Part shown: positions 18,357 to 57,363 of the stretch, piece after piece
How positions within the stretch are numbered: position 1 is the first letter of the stretch
How the letters are laid out: the number at the start of each line of letters is the position of its first letter
From: an uncultured Lachnospiraceae bacterium
GTDB lineage: Bacteria; Bacillota; Clostridia; Lachnospirales; Lachnospiraceae
Direction: 5' to 3'
NCBI GenBank assembly: GCA_947630595.1
Contig: CANRIG010000009.1
Location: 1 to 57,561, forward strand
Length of the DNA stretch: 57,561 bases
Position numbers and translations under genes: made by a program
The notes under the pieces: generated by a model
What the model was told of the DNA's origin: nothing
The model's database searches: none
Seen by the model: only the letters and a program-made list of their open reading frames with translations

Positions 18357-19024
18357 GTCTGTGCCTCCTGCTGTTCCTGTGTGATGATCTCGTTCAGCCG
18401 CGAGAGCAGCCCGGTGATGCGCTCGTTCTCCATGCGCATGCTGACCGGATTGACCACGACCCGCGCCGACAGAGGACAGATTTCCTCCAGCACCACGAGG
18501 CCGTTCTCGCGCAGCGTGGAGCCGGTCTCGACGATATCGACGATGACCTCCGAAAGCCCCACGATCGGCGCCAGCTCGATCGAACCGTTCAGCTTGATGA
18601 TCTCGACGGTCTGGTTTTTCTGATTGTAAAAATAGTCCTTGGCGATATGCGGGTACTTGGTAGCCACGCGGATCTGGCTCTGCCCGTCGAGCAGCGCCCG
18701 CGCCGGCTCCGGCCCGCACACGCACATGCGGCACCTGCCGAAGCCGAGGTCCAGCACCTCGTAGAGCTTGCGCCCTTCCTCCTGGATGGTGTCGCGCCCG
18801 ACGACGCCGATGTCCGCCGCCCCGTACTCCACGTAGGTGGGCACGTCTGGCCCCTTGGCGAGAAAAAATTTCAGTTTCAGTTCTTCATTTTTAAAGATCA
18901 GTTTGCGCGAATCGGGGTCCTTCATCTCATCGCAGACAATGCCCAGCCGCTCAAAAAGCTCCATTGTCTTTTTGGCCAGCCGTCCCTTCGTCAGCGCAAA
19001 CGTCAGATATCGGTCTGTATTCAT
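18344..19024 (-). CDS. hisG: ATP phosphoribosyltransferase, short form
   Basis: HisG starts histidine synthesis by joining ATP and PRPP. At 226 residues this is the short form without the C-terminal regulatory domain; such enzymes need HisZ, encoded directly upstream. It has [10 protein letters not shown] at the N-terminus and the PRPP-binding stretch [15 protein letters not shown] near residues 170-184. The ATG at 19024 lies 37 bases after the hisZ stop, with an AGGAGAG site slightly farther away than usual. Confidence 0.95.
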
Positions 19025-19061
19025 ACGGTCTGCTGCTCTCCTGCCAACATTTTTTGTCGTT

Positions 19062-20267
19062 TTACTGTAATTCTCCGCTTCCGTCCCGGGACAGATCAAT
19101 CACGCGCGCGTTTGGAAGCGCGTTCGCGTAATCCAGGCAGTCCTGGCGGGTGCGTTCCCCGGCGATGCGCACAAGCTCCGTCCCGACGCCCTGCGCCCGC
19201 AGCTCCAGCGCCCGGCGAATGGCCTCCGCCCGCCGCTCTTCCTCATAGATGACCACGCAGCGCGGCGCGGCTTCCTCCGGCTCCGCTTTCTGGCGCGCGA
19301 GCGCGTTTAAAAGCTGGTCGATCACCGCCACAAAGCCGACCGCCGGCGCGTCCTTTCCGAAATGACGGAGCAGTCCGTCGTAGCGGCCTCCGCGGATGAT
19401 GGCCTCGCCGGTGCCGTAGGTGTAGCCGCGGAAGATGATGCCGGTGTAGTACATGTAGCGGCTCAGCATGCCGAGGTCGAACGATACGTACTCTTCCACG
19501 CCGTACAGGCACAGAATCTCCCGGATGTCGCGCAGCCGCTGCAGGGCGGCCAGCGCCTGCGGGTTACCGGTCATCGCCTGCGCCCGGTCGAGGACCGCTT
19601 CGCTGCCGAACAGCCCCGTCAGGGAGGCGAACAGTTGCTTCAGGGAGCCGCTGATGTTCTGGCCGTGCAGCAGCTGCTGTACGCCGAAGGTATTTTTGTT
19701 GGTGATCAGCTCTTTCAGCTGCGCCGTCAGCGTCTCGTCAAGCCCGGCCTCGTGCGCCAGGGCGTGGAAAAAGCCGACGTGCCCGAGCACGATCTGAAAT
19801 TCACCGAGGCCGCTGGCCTGCAGCAGCCGAACTACAAGGGCGATGTTTTCCGCGTCGGCGTCCGCGCTGTCGTCCCCGATCAGCTCGCAGCCGATCTGCG
19901 TCGTCTCCTTGAGGCGTCCCTGATAGCTGGAATTGTTGATGAAAGCGTTCCCCAGGTAGGTGAGGCGGATCGCCATGCGGTCGTTGAGAAAATAGCGGGA
20001 GGCCGCTCTGGCCACCGGCGGTGTAAAATCCGGCCGCAGCACCAGCGTATTGCCCTCGCGGTCGAAAAACTTATACAGCTCGCGCGACGGTGTGGTGCCG
20101 ATCTCATTGCTGAAAATGTCGAAAAATTCAAAGGTCGGAGTCTCGATGCCGCGGTAGCCGCAGGAGCGGATGACGGCGCGGAGCTTTTCCTGCAGCGCCA
20201 GCTTCCGCTCGTATTCTCCGTTGTAAATGTCGCGAACGCCTTCCGGCGTGTGCAAAATTTTCTGCAT
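19062..20267 (-). CDS. hisZ: ATP phosphoribosyltransferase regulatory subunit HisZ
   Basis: HisZ is a histidyl-tRNA synthetase-like protein that forms an octamer with short HisG and mediates histidine feedback. The 401-residue protein has the class II synthetase fold, with HTPEGVRDI at the start, [11 protein letters not shown] (motif 2 region) and [12 protein letters not shown] (motif 3 region). It lacks a full anticodon-binding domain. It opens the his operon behind a consensus promoter. Confidence 0.93.
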
Positions 20268-20358
20268 CTGTGTTCTCTTCTTTCCGGATGTCCTTTTCCA
20301 GGATGTCCTGCGCCTGCCGGAACGCCCGGCGGCACGGCTGATAATTTAACACTGTGAA

Positions 20359-20376
20359 GTGGTAATTCGCTACCAC
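20359..20376. promoter_or_regulatory. Palindrome just downstream of the his promoter
   Basis: GTGGTA (20359-20364) and TACCAC (20371-20376) flank six bases and lie about 12 bases inside the predicted transcript. The position suits a repressor site or a small leader hairpin. No T-box or histidine-codon leader peptide was recognised in the rest of the leader. Confidence 0.4.
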
Positions 20377-20394
20377 ATAAAATCAAACGAACAA

Positions 20395-20423
20395 ATTATA
20401 AGAGATAACAGGGAAATTGTCAA
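20395..20423 (-). promoter_or_regulatory. his operon promoter
   Basis: A perfect sigma-A-type promoter on the minus strand: TTGACA (20418-20423), 17-base spacer, TATAAT (20395-20400). It overlaps the stop codon of recU and lies about 130 bases before hisZ. Confidence 0.8.
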
Positions 20424-20968
20424 TCCCCACTGTGCGCGTCCCGAAAATCGAGATCGCGCTGCAGCGCCTCCAGGTACGGCACGAGAATGCCGCTGTGCGG
20501 CTGAATGTAATAATTCTGGTCAAGCTCCATGTAACGGAAGCTCTTTCTGCCGCCCTCCTGCGCCCGGTTCCAGAACGCCATCATATCCCGGTACGGCAGG
20601 TAGAACAGCTCGTTGCGGGTGCTGAAAAACAGAATCAGGAACGACACCCCGCCCTGCCGTTCAAACTGTGTCATAAACTCCACCTGGTGCGGGTGGATGT
20701 TCTGCAGGGCGAACGTGTCCGCCGTGCACTCCTTGGCGTCGAAGCACACCGGAATGCCCTGCACGGCGCCGATGTAGTCGACGGTGCTCTTCTGGTCGAA
20801 ATAGGCGAGCGTGATGTGGCGGCTCTCCTTGTCGATACGGATGGGGGTGATCGGAGTCGGCACCTTCTGAATCAGCGCCAGTCCCTTTTCCAGATACAGC
20901 TCGTTGGTGCGGTTGATCAGCTCCTCGAGCGTCGAGCCGCGCAAGCCGCGGGTGTTCCAGGTTGCCAT
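20420..20968 (-). CDS. recU: Holliday junction resolvase RecU
   Basis: RecU cleaves Holliday junctions in Firmicutes and works with RuvAB, whose genes are also in this window. The 182-residue protein has the N-terminal GSTLEELINRTNELYLEKGLALI region and QKVPTPI. The nuclease residues are Asp64 (STVDYIG), Asp77 and Lys79 (FDAKE), and a conserved PLPYRD-like segment (FYLPYRD) follows. AAGGA precedes the ATG. The start is downstream of a long hairpin element. Confidence 0.93.
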   Translation of the reverse strand: MATWNTRGLRGSTLEELINRTNELYLEKGLALIQKVPTPITPIRIDKESRHITLAYFDQKSTVDYIGAVQGIPVCFDAKECTADTFALQNIHPHQVEFMTQFERQGGVSFLILFFSTRNELFYLPYRDMMAFWNRAQEGGRKSFRYMELDQNYYIQPHSGILVPYLEALQRDLDFRDAHSGD

Positions 20969-21020
20969 AGTGATTCCTTCTTACATCTGTTGAGTGTTAT
21001 CTGTCTGTTGCCACTGGGAC

Positions 21021-21197
21021 GCTGCCGCGAGGCGCCTGTCCCCGCGCGGACGGGGCAAAGCTGCGGTGAACGAATCGCTGACTGCGACTAAGCCGCTCAG
21101 GAGAGCCTTCGCGGCTAAGTCTCCGTAGGCGATGGATTTCACCTCCGCAAAAAGCGCCCCTGAGTGTCCGCTTCCGGGACAGGCGCCTTGCGGCAGC
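21021..21197. repeat. 177-bp rod-like hairpin element between recU and the RluA-family gene
   Basis: The outer arms (21021-21042 and 21176-21197) match over 22 bases with one mismatch. Further arms nest inside: GCGGAC with GTCCGC, GGGGC with GCCCC, GCGGTGAA with TTCACCTCCGC, ATCGC with GCGAT, and GACT-A-AGCCGC with GCGGCT-A-AGTC. The whole element can fold into one long rod. It fills most of a 325-base gene-free gap. It could be a structured RNA, a leader of recU or a non-autonomous repeat element. Confidence 0.7.
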
Positions 21198-52513: not shown

Positions 52514-53983
52514 TCAGATAATAATGCAGATCAGCTTCCCGCGCGACTCATTTACGATACATTTCATCGTATCCTGCAGCTTTTGCTGGCTCTGGTCCCC
52601 GATCATGGCCAGCCGCGACTGAATGCCCTCCTCCACCATCTGCTCCACGGATTTCCCGAAAATCAGCGTGCCGCCGGCCCCGTCCTCGGTCCCGCCGCTG
52701 TTTTTCATGTAGGAAATCAGATCCTGCGCCTGCGACTCACTGCCGACGAGGGGCGCGATTTCCGTCTCGATGTCGGCCCGGATCAGGTGGATGGAAGGCG
52801 AGGTGGCCCTGATTTTCACGCCGTAGCGGTTGCCCTGGCGGATCACGGCCGGCTCCTCCATGTGGATTTCCCCGCGCTGCGGCGTGATGACGCCGTAGCC
52901 GGTCTGCCGGACCGCGGACATTGCGGTGGCCACCGATTCATATTCCTTTTTCAGGAGGGACATCTCGCGCACCAGCGAGATCAGCTGATATTCGTTGAGG
53001 ATTTCCGTGCCCGTCATTTCGCTGAGGATTTCATAGTAGAGCGGCTCCTGCATGGCCACCGCCACTTCCACGCTGCCGTCCGCGAGGCTGACGTGCTCGA
53101 TTTTCGCCTTTTTGATGTGCTCGCTGACCGGCAGGACGCTGTCGCGGTAGACGTCGCGCACCGTGTGCAGTCCCTGCATCGACGTCTGCACCGCCGCGAA
53201 CAGCTCCTTTTTCAGCCAGTGCCCGCTGTCGAGCGTCTCCATCCACCGCGGAATCTGGAAAATGACGCGCGTCAGCGGAAATTCATAGAGAAACTGTTCA
53301 AACACGCGGTAGATTTCGCTCTCTCCCATCTGCTCGCAGTTCAGCACCACCGGCGAAACCCCGTACGTCGTCTGCAGGTACGCCGCGGCGGCCTTCGCCT
53401 CCTCGCCGTAGGGGCGCGCGGAATTGAGGACGACCAGAAACGGCTTGCCGATCTGCGCAAGCTGCGTGATGGCCTCCCGCTCCGCCTCTATAAAATTCTC
53501 GCGCGGCAGCTCGCCGAAGCTGCCGTCCGTGGTCACCACAATGCCGACGGTCGCGTGATCCGTGATCACTTTCTGCGTGCCGATTCTGGCCGCGTCCTTA
53601 AACGGGAGCGGCTGTTCCTGCCACGGCGTTTTGACCATGCGCGCCCTGCCGTCCTCCTGTGTGCCCTCCGCTCCAGGGATGAGAAAGCCGACGCAGTCCA
53701 CGAGCCGCACCTGCATGCCGGTTCCGTCCCCGACCTCGATGCGGGCCGCGCTGCGCGGGATGAATTTGGGCTCCACCGTCGTCACCGTGCGTCCCGACGC
53801 GCTGGCCGGCATCTCGTCCTGCGCCTGCGCCCGCTCCTGGTCTTTCAGCTCCGGGAGCACGAGGTGCTCCACGAATTTTCTCACAAAGGTGGATTTCCCT
53901 GTCCGCACAGGGCCTACGATACCAACATAGATGTCTCCGCCCGTTCTCCGCTGAATATCTCTGTATAAATCGAATTTCTCCAT
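52514..53983 (-). CDS. spoIVA: Stage IV sporulation protein A, spore coat ATPase
   Basis: SpoIVA polymerises on the forespore surface using ATP and anchors the coat. The 489-residue protein starts MEKFDLYRDIQRRTGGDIYVGIVGPVRTGKST in overlapping parts, with Walker A at about 24-32, and covers the full family length including the C-terminal region that binds SpoVM. AGGGGG lies seven bases before the ATG, inside a strong hairpin. No clean sigma-E promoter was found nearby, although CATATAGT in the same hairpin resembles its -10. Confidence 0.96.
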   Translation of the reverse strand: MEKFDLYRDIQRRTGGDIYVGIVGPVRTGKSTFVRKFVEHLVLPELKDQERAQAQDEMPASASGRTVTTVEPKFIPRSAARIEVGDGTGMQVRLVDCVGFLIPGAEGTQEDGRARMVKTPWQEQPLPFKDAARIGTQKVITDHATVGIVVTTDGSFGELPRENFIEAEREAITQLAQIGKPFLVVLNSARPYGEEAKAAAAYLQTTYGVSPVVLNCEQMGESEIYRVFEQFLYEFPLTRVIFQIPRWMETLDSGHWLKKELFAAVQTSMQGLHTVRDVYRDSVLPVSEHIKKAKIEHVSLADGSVEVAVAMQEPLYYEILSEMTGTEILNEYQLISLVREMSLLKKEYESVATAMSAVRQTGYGVITPQRGEIHMEEPAVIRQGNRYGVKIRATSPSIHLIRADIETEIAPLVGSESQAQDLISYMKNSGGTEDGAGGTLIFGKSVEQMVEEGIQSRLAMIGDQSQQKLQDTMKCIVNESRGKLICIII

Positions 53984-53989
53984 GAAAAG

Positions 53990-54028
53990 ACCCCCTGCAT
54001 ATACTACTTCACTATATGCGAAGGGGGT
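53990..54028 (-). promoter_or_regulatory. Hairpin covering the spoIVA ribosome-binding site
   Basis: ACCCCC (complement of 54023-54028) pairs with GGGGGT (53990-53995), and GCATATA pairs with TATATGC (53997-54003 with 54013-54019), around a nine-base loop. The 3' arm contains the AGGGGG ribosome-binding site. Confidence 0.65.
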
Positions 54029-54057
54029 ATCGGGTAGAACCGGAATTTCCGGGCGTA

Positions 54058-54113
54058 TAAAAAAGGCGCCGTCCCTGCGGGCCTTGCGGATGCCTGCAGC
54101 AAACTGCGCCTTT
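54058..54113 (-). terminator. Terminator ending the cobalamin riboswitch transcript
   Basis: AAAGGCGC and GCGCCTTT (54062-54069 with 54106-54113) form the outer stem, with a further CTGC/GCAG pair inside. On the minus strand it is followed by TTTTTT. It lies between the riboswitch and spoIVA. Confidence 0.75.
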
Positions 54114-54330
54114 CGTACAGATCAGCTTGCGGAACGTCATCTGTACGCGGTCCGGCGGCCTGTCTTTGCGGAGAGCCAGGGTCTGCCGGAACACAAGGAG
54201 GTATGTTTGTGTATAGATACATTGCCTCGAGACAACATTCCATCTTTCTATATTGCCCGGTTCCCATCGCAGGCAACACGGCCGCAGCGGCCGGCGGAGT
54301 GTTCAGCTTTACTCGGAAGCTCATCTCTCA

Positions 54331-54489
54331 TACCAAGCAGGTTTCCTGGCTCGCAGATCATCGTTCGCCTCTCCTTCTCGCGCCTGATGGGTGCGCAATG
54401 GAATACTGAGGGTCGCTCCCTGCATACAGTGACCGGATCGCTCAGGCGTCGCACCTGATTCCCTTTTCAGATCATGTCTGCACTTGGTA
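54331..54489 (-). ncRNA. Cobalamin riboswitch aptamer
   Basis: On the minus strand, stem P1 is formed by TACCAAG (54483-54489) and CTTGGTA (54331-54337). Between them are the conserved core AAAGGGAATCAGGTGCGA, the segment CCGGTCACTGTATGC, and the B12 box GAGCCAGGAAACCTGC (about 54337-54352) just before the 3' arm of P1. These are the hallmarks of the cobalamin riboswitch. The next 270 bases to the terminator hold several stems (for example 54115-54122 with 54139-54146) but no gene with a ribosome-binding site and homology. The nearest coding sequence on this strand is spoIVA, beyond the terminator. Confidence 0.88.
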
Positions 54490-54515
54490 CGGCAATTACT
54501 TATTACACAGGAAAA

Positions 54516-54544
54516 ACTATAGCATGTTTTTCCGAAATCGTCAA
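54516..54544 (-). promoter_or_regulatory. Promoter of the cobalamin riboswitch RNA
   Basis: TTGACG (54539-54544), 17-base spacer and TATAGT (54516-54521) on the minus strand. Transcription would start near 54509, about 20 bases before the aptamer. The RNA to the terminator is about 450 bases. Confidence 0.7.
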
Positions 54545-54552
54545 CCGCCTGC

Positions 54553-54825
54553 TTATCCGCGCACGGAAAATCCGTGTTCATTTTCTTCCAGCGGCAGCTC
54601 CTTGATGTCCATCCAGAAGACGGAAATGTAGCGGCTGCCCTTGATCTTGACGAGCAGCTCGTCGATCAGCGCAGGACGCCCCTGCACCTCCATGGTGACG
54701 GTGCCGTCCCACTCGTTGCGCACCCAGCCCGTCAGGCTCAGGGAACGCGCCAGGTGCGAGGCCGTGTAGCGGAAGCCGACGCCCTGGACGTGGCCGTAAA
54801 AGCGAATGTGCCTGCGTTCTTCCAT
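54553..54825 (-). CDS. acyP: Acylphosphatase
   Basis: Hydrolyses acyl phosphates such as acetyl and carbamoyl phosphate. The 90-residue protein has the phosphate-binding loop HVQGVGFR with catalytic Arg19 and the second catalytic residue Asn37 in GWVRNEWDGTV. It lies six bases after proB and probably shares its transcript; whether it acts on the proline pathway's glutamyl phosphate is unknown. Confidence 0.94.
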   Translation of the reverse strand: MEERRHIRFYGHVQGVGFRYTASHLARSLSLTGWVRNEWDGTVTMEVQGRPALIDELLVKIKGSRYISVFWMDIKELPLEENEHGFSVRG

Positions 54826-54831
54826 GGACGC

Positions 54832-55626
54832 TTACTTCCCGGTAAACAGCGTGCCCACGCGGGCGCCGCGCACGATGTCGTAGAGCGCCGCCGGATTTTT
54901 GCCGTTGGTGATGATGGTATCGATCCCCTGCGCCGTCGCCAGGGTGGCCGCCTGCAGCTTGGTCTTCATACCGCCGGTGCCGCGCCGGCTGCCCGCGCCT
55001 CCGGCCAGGTGGTAAACGCTCTCGTCGATGCAGTCAATCTGTTCGATCAGGCGCGCGTTCGGGTGAAGCCGCGGATCGCTGTCGTAGAAGCCGTCGATGT
55101 CGGAGAAGATCACCAGCTTCTGCGCCCGGCACAGCACGGCCACGACTGCCGAGAGCATGTCGTTGTCGCTGAACAGCCGGTCCTCGGACTCGATCTCCGT
55201 GTAGCTGACGGAATCGTTTTCGTTGACGACCGGGATCACGCCCATCTCCAGCAGGGAGTCGAACGTGTTGGTCAGGTTCTCCTTTTTCTCCTCGTGCTCG
55301 ACGTCCTCCGCGTTGAGCAGGATCTGGGCGATGGTCTTGTCGTAGTCGCCGAAAAACTTGTCGTACAGGAACATGATCCGGCACTGCCCCACCGCGGCGG
55401 CCGCCTGTTTCAGCCGCATGGTGTCCGGCCGCTTCGCCATGCCGAGCTTGTTCGCGCCGACCGCGATCGCGCCGGAGGAAACCAGGATCACCTCGTAGCC
55501 CATATTGTGAATATCCGCCAGCACGCAGGCCAGGCGGTCAAATGCGCGCAGATTGTTCTGCCCCGTTTCATTCGTCAGGGTGGAGGTCCCTACCTTGACG
55601 ACGATCCGATTCTGAAATAGTCCCAT
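54832..55626 (-). CDS. proB: Glutamate 5-kinase without PUA domain
   Basis: ProB phosphorylates glutamate, the first step of proline synthesis. The 264-residue protein is the kinase domain only (RIVVKVGTSTLTNE, then VILVSSGAIAVGANKL, NENDSVS and FSDIDGFY). The C-terminal PUA domain of the E. coli enzyme is absent, as in many Clostridia. No proA is in the window. The ATG at 55626 has GAGG; an ATG four codons earlier lacks a site. A promoter with an overlapping palindrome lies upstream. Confidence 0.95.
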   Translation of the reverse strand: MGLFQNRIVVKVGTSTLTNETGQNNLRAFDRLACVLADIHNMGYEVILVSSGAIAVGANKLGMAKRPDTMRLKQAAAAVGQCRIMFLYDKFFGDYDKTIAQILLNAEDVEHEEKKENLTNTFDSLLEMGVIPVVNENDSVSYTEIESEDRLFSDNDMLSAVVAVLCRAQKLVIFSDIDGFYDSDPRLHPNARLIEQIDCIDESVYHLAGGAGSRRGTGGMKTKLQAATLATAQGIDTIITNGKNPAALYDIVRGARVGTLFTGK

Positions 55627-56693: not shown

Positions 56694-57323
56694 TTATTTC
56701 AGGCGCGCAAGCACGCTCTCAAAGATTTCATCAGCCAGCGGCGGGTATTTCTCGAGCATTGCGTCCGCCTTTGCGTTGAGCTCGGCCGCATACTCTTTGT
56801 TTGCCATGGATTTCGTATTGATGTACACGTTCAGACTTGCGCCTTTTAAGGCCGCCTTGCAGAAGATCACGCCCACGCCCGCGTCGCTGATCGCCAGCGC
56901 GGAGCCTTTGGCCGCGAACTCTTTGATCAGGTCGATCGCCTCGCAGCATTTCTCCATGATCTCCATGGGAACGGAGCAGGCGTCCTTGAGCACGATTTCC
57001 ATCACGCGCGCTTTCTCCGCTTTTTCTTCCTCGGTCGCGCGCGGCATTCCGTATGCCTTGGAAAGGGGTTCGAATACCTCTGCGTCCTTCTCCACGAGCG
57101 CCAGGAGCTCCTCCTGCAGCTTGTCGCATTTTGCCTTGAGCTCATACATCTCCGCCTCGACGTCCGCATATTTCTTCTTGCCGACGGTGAGGCTGCCTAC
57201 CATGTTTCCGAGGGCCGTGCCGATGGCGCCCACCAGCGCGGACGCGCCGCCGCCGCCCGGAACCGGAGCCTTTGAAGCGAGTACTTCCACAAACTCATTG
57301 CACGGTACGGTTGAAAATCCCAT
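56694..57323 (-). CDS. fchA: Methenyltetrahydrofolate cyclohydrolase (FchA, cyclodeaminase family)
   Basis: A 209-residue, mostly helical protein of the formiminotransferase-cyclodeaminase C-terminal family. Stand-alone members in Clostridia (FchA) hydrolyse methenyl-THF to formyl-THF. The N-terminal signature VLASKAPVPGGGGASALVGAIG is clear. It lies between fhs and folD, completing formate to methylene-THF interconversion. Confidence 0.9.
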   Translation of the reverse strand: MGFSTVPCNEFVEVLASKAPVPGGGGASALVGAIGTALGNMVGSLTVGKKKYADVEAEMYELKAKCDKLQEELLALVEKDAEVFEPLSKAYGMPRATEEEKAEKARVMEIVLKDACSVPMEIMEKCCEAIDLIKEFAAKGSALAISDAGVGVIFCKAALKGASLNVYINTKSMANKEYAAELNAKADAMLEKYPPLADEIFESVLARLK

Positions 57324-57363
57324 TGCTGTCTACCTCCTTCGTATCAGACGGTCTGTTCTGTTA

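Follow-up and report, generated by a model that had tools for sequence, protein, structure and literature searches.

On the minus strand of a 57,561-nucleotide stretch of DNA from an uncultured Lachnospiraceae bacterium (contig CANRIG010000009.1 of assembly GCA_947630595.1; hereafter the window), we found a unit of about 450 nt that is very probably a stand-alone non-coding RNA. Computationally, it presents itself as a promoter-like site, a cobalamin aptamer, a conserved non-coding tail and a terminator; the gene downstream of it changes, and the unit is present in six genera. We consider it probable that this RNA acts in trans under the control of B12, while an action through pairing with ribosome-binding sites is a possibility that in our estimation falls somewhat short of probable. 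Taken as a whole and with its mechanism included, our reading of the unit as an RNA gene with a built-in B12 sensor, in which the aptamer forms the 5′ half and a conserved regulatory module the 3′ half, is one that we favor with some reservation. The features of the unit are compiled in Table 1.

Table 1. Features of the B12 sensor-containing RNA unit and its surroundings (positions are those of the window).
Feature	Position	Strand	Remarks
Promoter TTGACG-17-TATAGT with extended TG before the -10 region	54516..54544	minus	10/12 match
RNA 5′ end GUGUA (GUGUAA, ~54508), 5′ strand of long-range helix P0a	54504..54508	minus	inferred transcription start
AUUGCC, 5′ strand of long-range helix P0b	54491..54496	minus	
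Cobalamin aptamer (RF00174)	54502-54319	minus	
Hairpin GAGCUUCCGAGUAAAGC, immediately 3′ of the aptamer	54306..54322	minus	covarying
Hairpin with invariant GGG loop	54250..54279	minus	U-rich tract absent here
Near-invariant GGAAUGUUrUCUC (GGAAUGUUGUCUC here)	54229..54241	minus	can alternatively pair with 54131-54142 (H2: 5′ arm plus loop)
GGCAAU...UACAC, 3′ strands of the long-range helix closing the sensor domain	54209..54226	minus	
UACCUCCUU, anti-Shine-Dalgarno-like stretch	54195..54203	minus	
Hairpin H1, loop CUCCGCAAA	54149..54194	minus	extent approximate
Hairpin H2, stem GUACAGA/UCUGUAC, loop UCCGCAA	54115..54146	minus	
Hairpin H3 (terminator), inner loop UCCGCAA, then T6	54059..54110	minus	strong covariation
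spoIVA start	53983	minus	

A preliminary description of this DNA had pointed to a good promoter, a full cobalamin aptamer, an intrinsic terminator ahead of spoIVA and the lack of a credible ORF in between, and each of these features was borne out. The promoter is conserved in the 38 loci of the genus that we oriented for comparison (the locus of the window, G000, included); in their alignment, TTGAC and TGnTATA are kept at 90% or more, and the region 53500-55000 contains two promoter-like sites as against the 0.4 expected from shuffling. The Rfam model RF00174 matches the aptamer over all of its 189 positions (1-189) with 105.9 bits (cut-off 31.5; E 1.5e-25). The 5′ half of the unit is hence a full-length member of this family, whereas three traits set the unit apart from it: its conserved tail, the helix by which the 5′ end closes the sensor domain, and the absence of a target gene. 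By score, the aptamer ranks third among the four RF00174 matches in this genome; as judged by eye, two of the other three precede CbiK-like genes and one precedes a gene for a solute-binding protein. B12 gating of the RNA is inferred from the aptamer. About 260 nt without a credible gene separate the aptamer from the terminator, a GC-rich stem ending in GGCGCC that is followed by T6 and covaries in the 38 sequences; a simple terminator scanner did not list it, probably because of the inner hairpin inside its loop. The spoIVA gene, in whose product the SpoIVA Pfam domains were found, lies on the same strand as the unit, 77 nt past the terminator.

The post-aptamer segment and its stems, including the covarying H3, are conserved in the relatives of this bacterium. 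We matched this region in 42 of the 47 genomes of the genus and in 24 of the 25 good-quality ones; the genomes without a match (G012, G024, G030, G034, and G040) have completeness values of 71-91%. The promoter-plus-aptamer region was matched in 44 of the 47 genomes, and the weakest of these matches (G024, G034) are perhaps other aptamers. Together with the kin found in five other genera (see below), the conserved, structured and non-coding tail supports, in outline, the idea of a B12-gated regulatory RNA that the preliminary description had put forward.

Two readings in which the unit would serve a neighboring or a former gene were weighed against these data. The unit might be a long riboswitch leader, an attenuator that governs read-through into the next gene, and both the strand of spoIVA and its proximity would suit such a function, since spoIVA directly follows the unit in 20 of the 38 loci. 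However, another gene comes first in 15 loci: an acyltransferase gene and then spoIVA (two), a [2Fe-2S] gene (six), cbiD, tetR and Ldh (one each), various other genes (G029, G043, G039), and a convergent gene (G023) whose protein product has no Pfam match. The next gene was not assigned in the remaining three loci, which lie on short contigs (G044, G003, G001). Pfam was consulted for ten of the neighboring proteins and orthologues were recognized by eye; short stop-to-stop frames of 83, 88 and 98 aa on the opposite strand just past the terminator (G014, G027 and G025, respectively) were disregarded. In the other genera, the next gene is of the [2Fe-2S] type by eye (G224), a convergent homocysteine S-methyltransferase gene (G295), a peptidase-like gene (G167), an unnamed gene (G249), or a convergent Fe-hydrogenase gene (G073), so that it is convergent in two of these five loci. 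Conservation, moreover, mostly stops at the terminator: the alignment of the intergenic region ends at query positions 491-522 in 31 of the 37 other loci of the genus, the terminator being located at 504, and a second short aligned piece precedes spoIVA in two of these 31. It extends to the spoIVA start in two loci (G042, G011) and stops earlier in four, in one of them at a contig end. Because the next gene varies and is sometimes convergent, and because conservation mostly ends with the terminator, we do not regard the unit as a spoIVA leader; the attenuation of spoIVA read-through considered in the preliminary description is thus very improbable.

Besides spoIVA, the commonest neighbor is a gene of the hydrogenase type, either the [2Fe-2S] gene or the Fe-hydrogenase gene of G073 (L025, L032, L065, L073, L075, L076, L114, L136; Pfam assignments for L025 and L136 only). 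Such a neighbor is also present in two genera beyond that of the window, and this neighborhood is perhaps the older location of the unit.

Even less credit can be given to the view that a short peptide gene, or the relic of a lost gene, follows a cobalamin riboswitch of the ordinary type. The RNA strand of this single genome does allow ORFs of up to 106 aa, but the distance between two conserved blocks differs from that of G000 by a number of nucleotides that is not a multiple of three in 20 of 37 sequences, each of the six frames is interrupted by stops in 18-27 of the 38 sequences, and, by eye, the conserved blocks fall into different frames in different species. No frame is kept across the 38 sequences and, judged by these patterns, the tail is non-coding. 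The compensatory changes in its stems and its conservation across six genera likewise speak against a peptide gene, and such long-term conservation is at odds with the lost gene that the preliminary description had also envisaged. We therefore consider this explanation as largely refuted.

Folded as a single sequence, the tail does only slightly better than its shuffled versions (z -1.92; 7 of 200 shuffles as good); the case for a structured tail rests on its conservation. In an alignment of 38 genus sequences (A1), H2 and H3 are 92.0% paired, compared to 25-53% for slid controls, and both sides have changed in 14 of the 25 pairs. All 500 shuffles scored lower on four of the five measures; on the fifth, the number of pair types, 13 of 500 did as well. 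Nearly all of this covariation resides in H3; in H2, the outer stem is almost constant and the three inner pairs are only weakly kept (66.4%).

For the upstream part of the structure, we used a full-length alignment (A6) of 37 of the 44 loci, from which three loci with long inserts (G010, G014, G011) and four whose 5′ end was missed by our pattern, yet is visible by eye (G025, G249, G073, G391), were left out. The helices tested in A6 were the two long-range helices connecting the 5′ end with the segment preceding UACCUCCUU, the GAGA/UCUC helix and the post-aptamer hairpin. They are 97.0% paired (22-53% when slid), with changes on both sides in five of 19 pairs (one in P0a, two in P0b and two in the post-aptamer hairpin), and they were equaled by none of 500 shuffles on four of five measures and by 16 of 500 on the fifth; in these comparisons, as in those for H2 and H3, related sequences may outdo shuffles even if they are unstructured, and the very sequences used for testing had also served to draw the structures. 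The GAGA/UCUC helix is invariant and hence uninformative on covariation, and P0b, which is 93.2% paired, fails in some rows of the alignment. The 5′-end helix has been rebuilt between lineages (GUGUA/UACAC, GUGCAAU/AUUGCAC, and GUGAAUUAC/GUAAUUCAC), and when its arms were swapped between single representatives of six lineages, eight of the 720 permutations were as good as the true one, which is itself among the eight. RNAalifold offered an alternative pairing between the near-invariant GGAAUGUUGUCU and AGAUGACGUUCC of H2; 99.6% of the cells pair without any compensatory change, and we view this pairing only as a candidate switch because it conflicts both with H2 and with the sensor-side pairing. 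The tail had no match among 4227 Rfam families at the gathering score or at E values up to 5, and we found no description of this RNA in the open-licence papers searched.

Five more genera of the Lachnospiraceae contain a unit of this layout downstream of a cobalamin aptamer. A covariance model of the tail gave convincing matches in three of 397 genomes of the family (G224, 36.9 bits; G295, 28.9 bits; G167, 23.8 bits), each with RF00174 just upstream, and a short core sequence model added G249 and G073, again with RF00174 upstream, as well as G391, which was recognized by sequence. The six loci have in common, in this order, the aptamer, the GGG-loop hairpin, AUCUC, a long-range arm, AUACCUCCUUC, one or more UCCGCA hairpins and a terminator-like stem, which itself contains CCGCA in G224, G167, G073 and G391. 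Promoters of the type TTGACA/TATAAT were found in L115, L136 and L128. In L128 (G249), an additional UUCCGCA hairpin is situated between the aptamer and the GGG-loop hairpin at about 1430-1450.

The searches of the 397 family genomes returned 11 genomes at E 0.01 in the first round and 29 at E 0.05 in the second. Six loci of the first round (L117-L122) were rejected since they fall within coding DNA or at its margin and have no RF00174 match, and eight of the 29 genomes of the second were members; the other 21 were discarded for want of an aptamer motif upstream (20 loci by Rfam, the rest by motif). This leaves eight verified members among the 397 genomes, distributed over six genera in a patchy fashion; the genera of G073 and G224 comprise only two and one genomes, respectively, and distant kin may have been missed because strict filters were applied in searches of more than 40 genomes. 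Among 392 genomes of the order, 54 were returned at E 0.1, with no new member by motif among L172-L198. A loose pattern applied to viral contigs gave at least 120 stretches, and in none of the 80 inspected by motif did an aptamer lie upstream. MT835545.1, an entry filed as a bacteriophage from human faeces, matches the aptamer only: its stretch 18544-21108 (L291) includes a cobalamin-aptamer-like sequence upstream of a secreted-protein-like ORF, with no UACCUCCUU within reach after it. The core pattern was also found in 35 stretches of GTDB contigs, whose titles name Lachnospiraceae or Clostridiales metagenome-assembled genomes, Candidatus Choladousia, Parablautia sp. Marseille-Q6255 and bacterium 1XD42-54; Candidatus Choladousia and Parablautia both belong to the Lachnospiraceae. 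Parablautia sp. Marseille-Q6255 and bacterium 1XD42-54 are seemingly cultured strains, which makes the RNA amenable to experimental testing.

The GGG-loop hairpin is followed by five to seven T residues within nine bases in five of the six loci from other genera, and by four in G167. Within the genus of the window, such a U-tract is kept in some species (seven T in G004, G023, G041, G043 and G039; six T in G044, G027 and G028) and lost in many close ones, G000 having a single T in nine bases; for G013, the script that counted T residues picked a different hairpin. Since the U-tract is missing, early termination at this hairpin is not evident in G000 and many close species. Where the tract is present, in the other genera and in some species of the genus, the hairpin is likely a ligand-controlled terminator, and the distribution of the tract suggests that control by early termination is the older state, with control by folding perhaps operating in the remaining species.

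In the mechanism that we propose, the RNA would act in trans. Binding of a corrinoid would set the amount of full-length RNA via early termination at the GGG-loop hairpin, or it might instead alter the folding of the tail, with GGAAUGUUrUCUC pairing either inside the sensor domain or with H2. The full-length form would expose UACCUCCUU, which is located just past the helix closing the sensor domain, together with the loops of the UCCGCA hairpins. UACCUCCUU could then pair with the ribosome-binding sites of target mRNAs and thereby hinder their translation, and the UCCGCA loops might aid this pairing or bind a protein. Control by early termination has been reported for Rli55 and AspocR (PMC8079631) and, by analogy with these two RNAs, the full-length form is likely made when B12 is scarce. 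An activating corrinoid riboswitch has been reported as well (PMC10653944), so that the B12 response may run in either direction. A more far-reaching proposition, which we rate as unlikely at present, is that these RNAs form a new class of ligand-gated trans-acting RNA with sensor and effector in one molecule. The corrinoid would here directly hide or expose the anti-Shine-Dalgarno segment via the 5′-end-to-core helix and the GGAAUGUUrUCUC switch; the B12 status would be passed post-transcriptionally to several mRNAs, and early termination would be unneeded where the mid U-tract has been lost.

The 3′ end of 16S rRNA contains the anti-Shine-Dalgarno sequence (...ACCUCCUU...). UACCUCCUU, which resembles it and directly follows the end of a helix, does not vary among the 38 genus sequences or the six loci from other genera, and on these grounds we view it as the best candidate for the active site of the RNA. 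In the predicted folds of 40 sequences, it is only moderately open (median unpaired 0.51; range 0.08-0.91). Full complements of AUACCUCCUU before ATG are few and mixed in G000: AAGGAGGTAT sites precede an ATG in three cases (a CodY-like gene and two others), and AAGGAGGTA sites number 15. One of these 15 lies in the window itself (57321-57339), where an fchA-like gene, assigned by eye, has the ribosome-binding site AAGGAGGTAG.

AAGGAGGTAT sites are present in 46 of the 47 genomes of the genus. Those that we read came from 23 loci (L201-L223) and a further 58 selected stretches, along with two longer stretches that supplied context, and frequencies from the last 20 selected stretches are biased because these were chosen partly for their resemblance to the corrinoid operon described below. 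By eye, the genes that recur behind these sites are PFOR-like, ribosomal L10-like and CodY-like ones, and a nitroreductase gene was assigned by Pfam. Two genes of one corrinoid-methyltransferase operon, with URO-D and B12-binding Pfam domains, also recur; among the matches listed for G001-G023, such a perfectly complementary site precedes the URO-D gene in eight genomes and the corrinoid gene in six, and many of these loci were picked after the first ones had been seen. The operon was seen in L289 (G009:C76) and L290 (G019:C104), with similar ones in G004, G006, G007, G015, G018 and G020; it encodes the URO-D protein and the corrinoid protein and, by eye, a RACE-type protein in G019. As a target of a B12-sensing RNA, this operon would make sense, and we treat it as a lead. 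Duplex energies gave no preference for it: the mean was -26.9 kcal/mol for 10 of the 14 corrinoid sites (those from genomes whose own RNA entered the calculation) vs. -28.2 kcal/mol for 58 others (p 0.76), four of which were sites read twice (54 distinct sites), and sites preceding ORFs of less than 40 aa were omitted.

The precedent invoked in the preliminary description, the sequestration of the ANTAR-domain regulator EutV, is not supported for this RNA. As in Rli55 of Listeria and EutX of Enterococcus, a cobalamin riboswitch leads into a non-coding RNA and not into a gene, and a candidate mid-terminator that would give short and long forms is seen in other genera of the present class. The ANTAR motif is a dual hexaloop in which positions 1 and 4 are occupied by A and G, respectively (PMC8934654). 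We scanned 43 loci for such A1/G4 hexaloops on stems of at least four pairs, a procedure that counts any local stem, so that single matches mean little: 18 loci had any candidate, four had two, and none was common to most loci. The commonest candidates were an AUUGUG loop in six loci and the AGGGUA loop of the mid hairpin in five. The one ANTAR-domain protein found in the genome (L156, G000:C19:32551-32697) is encoded, by eye, between glutamine-synthetase-like and dapF-like genes, and no eut gene was recognized among the next genes of the unit. Unlike Rli55 and EutX, this RNA thus lacks a conserved ANTAR dual hexaloop and carries instead the anti-Shine-Dalgarno-like stretch and the UCCGCA-loop hairpins.

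These hairpins could nonetheless sequester an RNA-binding regulator of a different kind, in the manner of Rli55 and EutV, with UACCUCCUU serving as a spacer or as part of the site. In keeping with such a protein sponge, the loop motif recurs in two or three hairpins of the tail, UACCUCCUU is followed by one or more UCCGCA hairpins in each of the six loci from other genera, the loops of H1 and H3 are mostly unpaired in the predicted folds, and for most of the genus the last hairpin with the motif is part of the terminator, an arrangement reminiscent of antitermination systems. Yet conserved ANTAR hexaloops are missing, the motif of H1 has been lost in several species of the genus, the terminators of G295 and G249 are devoid of it, and the loop of H2 is closed in several predicted folds. 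We know of no protein of that kind and hold the sponge to be a rather doubtful explanation. In AspocR, the B12 riboswitch-controlled antisense RNA of pocR in Listeria, a riboswitch likewise precedes an RNA that may act by base-pairing, as has been suggested there and as we envisage here. The present RNA, however, is not antisense to a neighbor: its neighbors differ between species, and those in the window share its strand and lie entirely outside of the unit.

To our knowledge, few riboswitches have an RNA as their target in place of a gene, and those responding to B12 come from Listeria and Enterococcus. The RNA gene with a built-in B12 sensor described here would add a separate family of RNA-controlling B12 riboswitches, from gut Lachnospiraceae and with a different effector part. 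It would bear on how gut bacteria that compete for corrinoids tune sets of their genes to B12.
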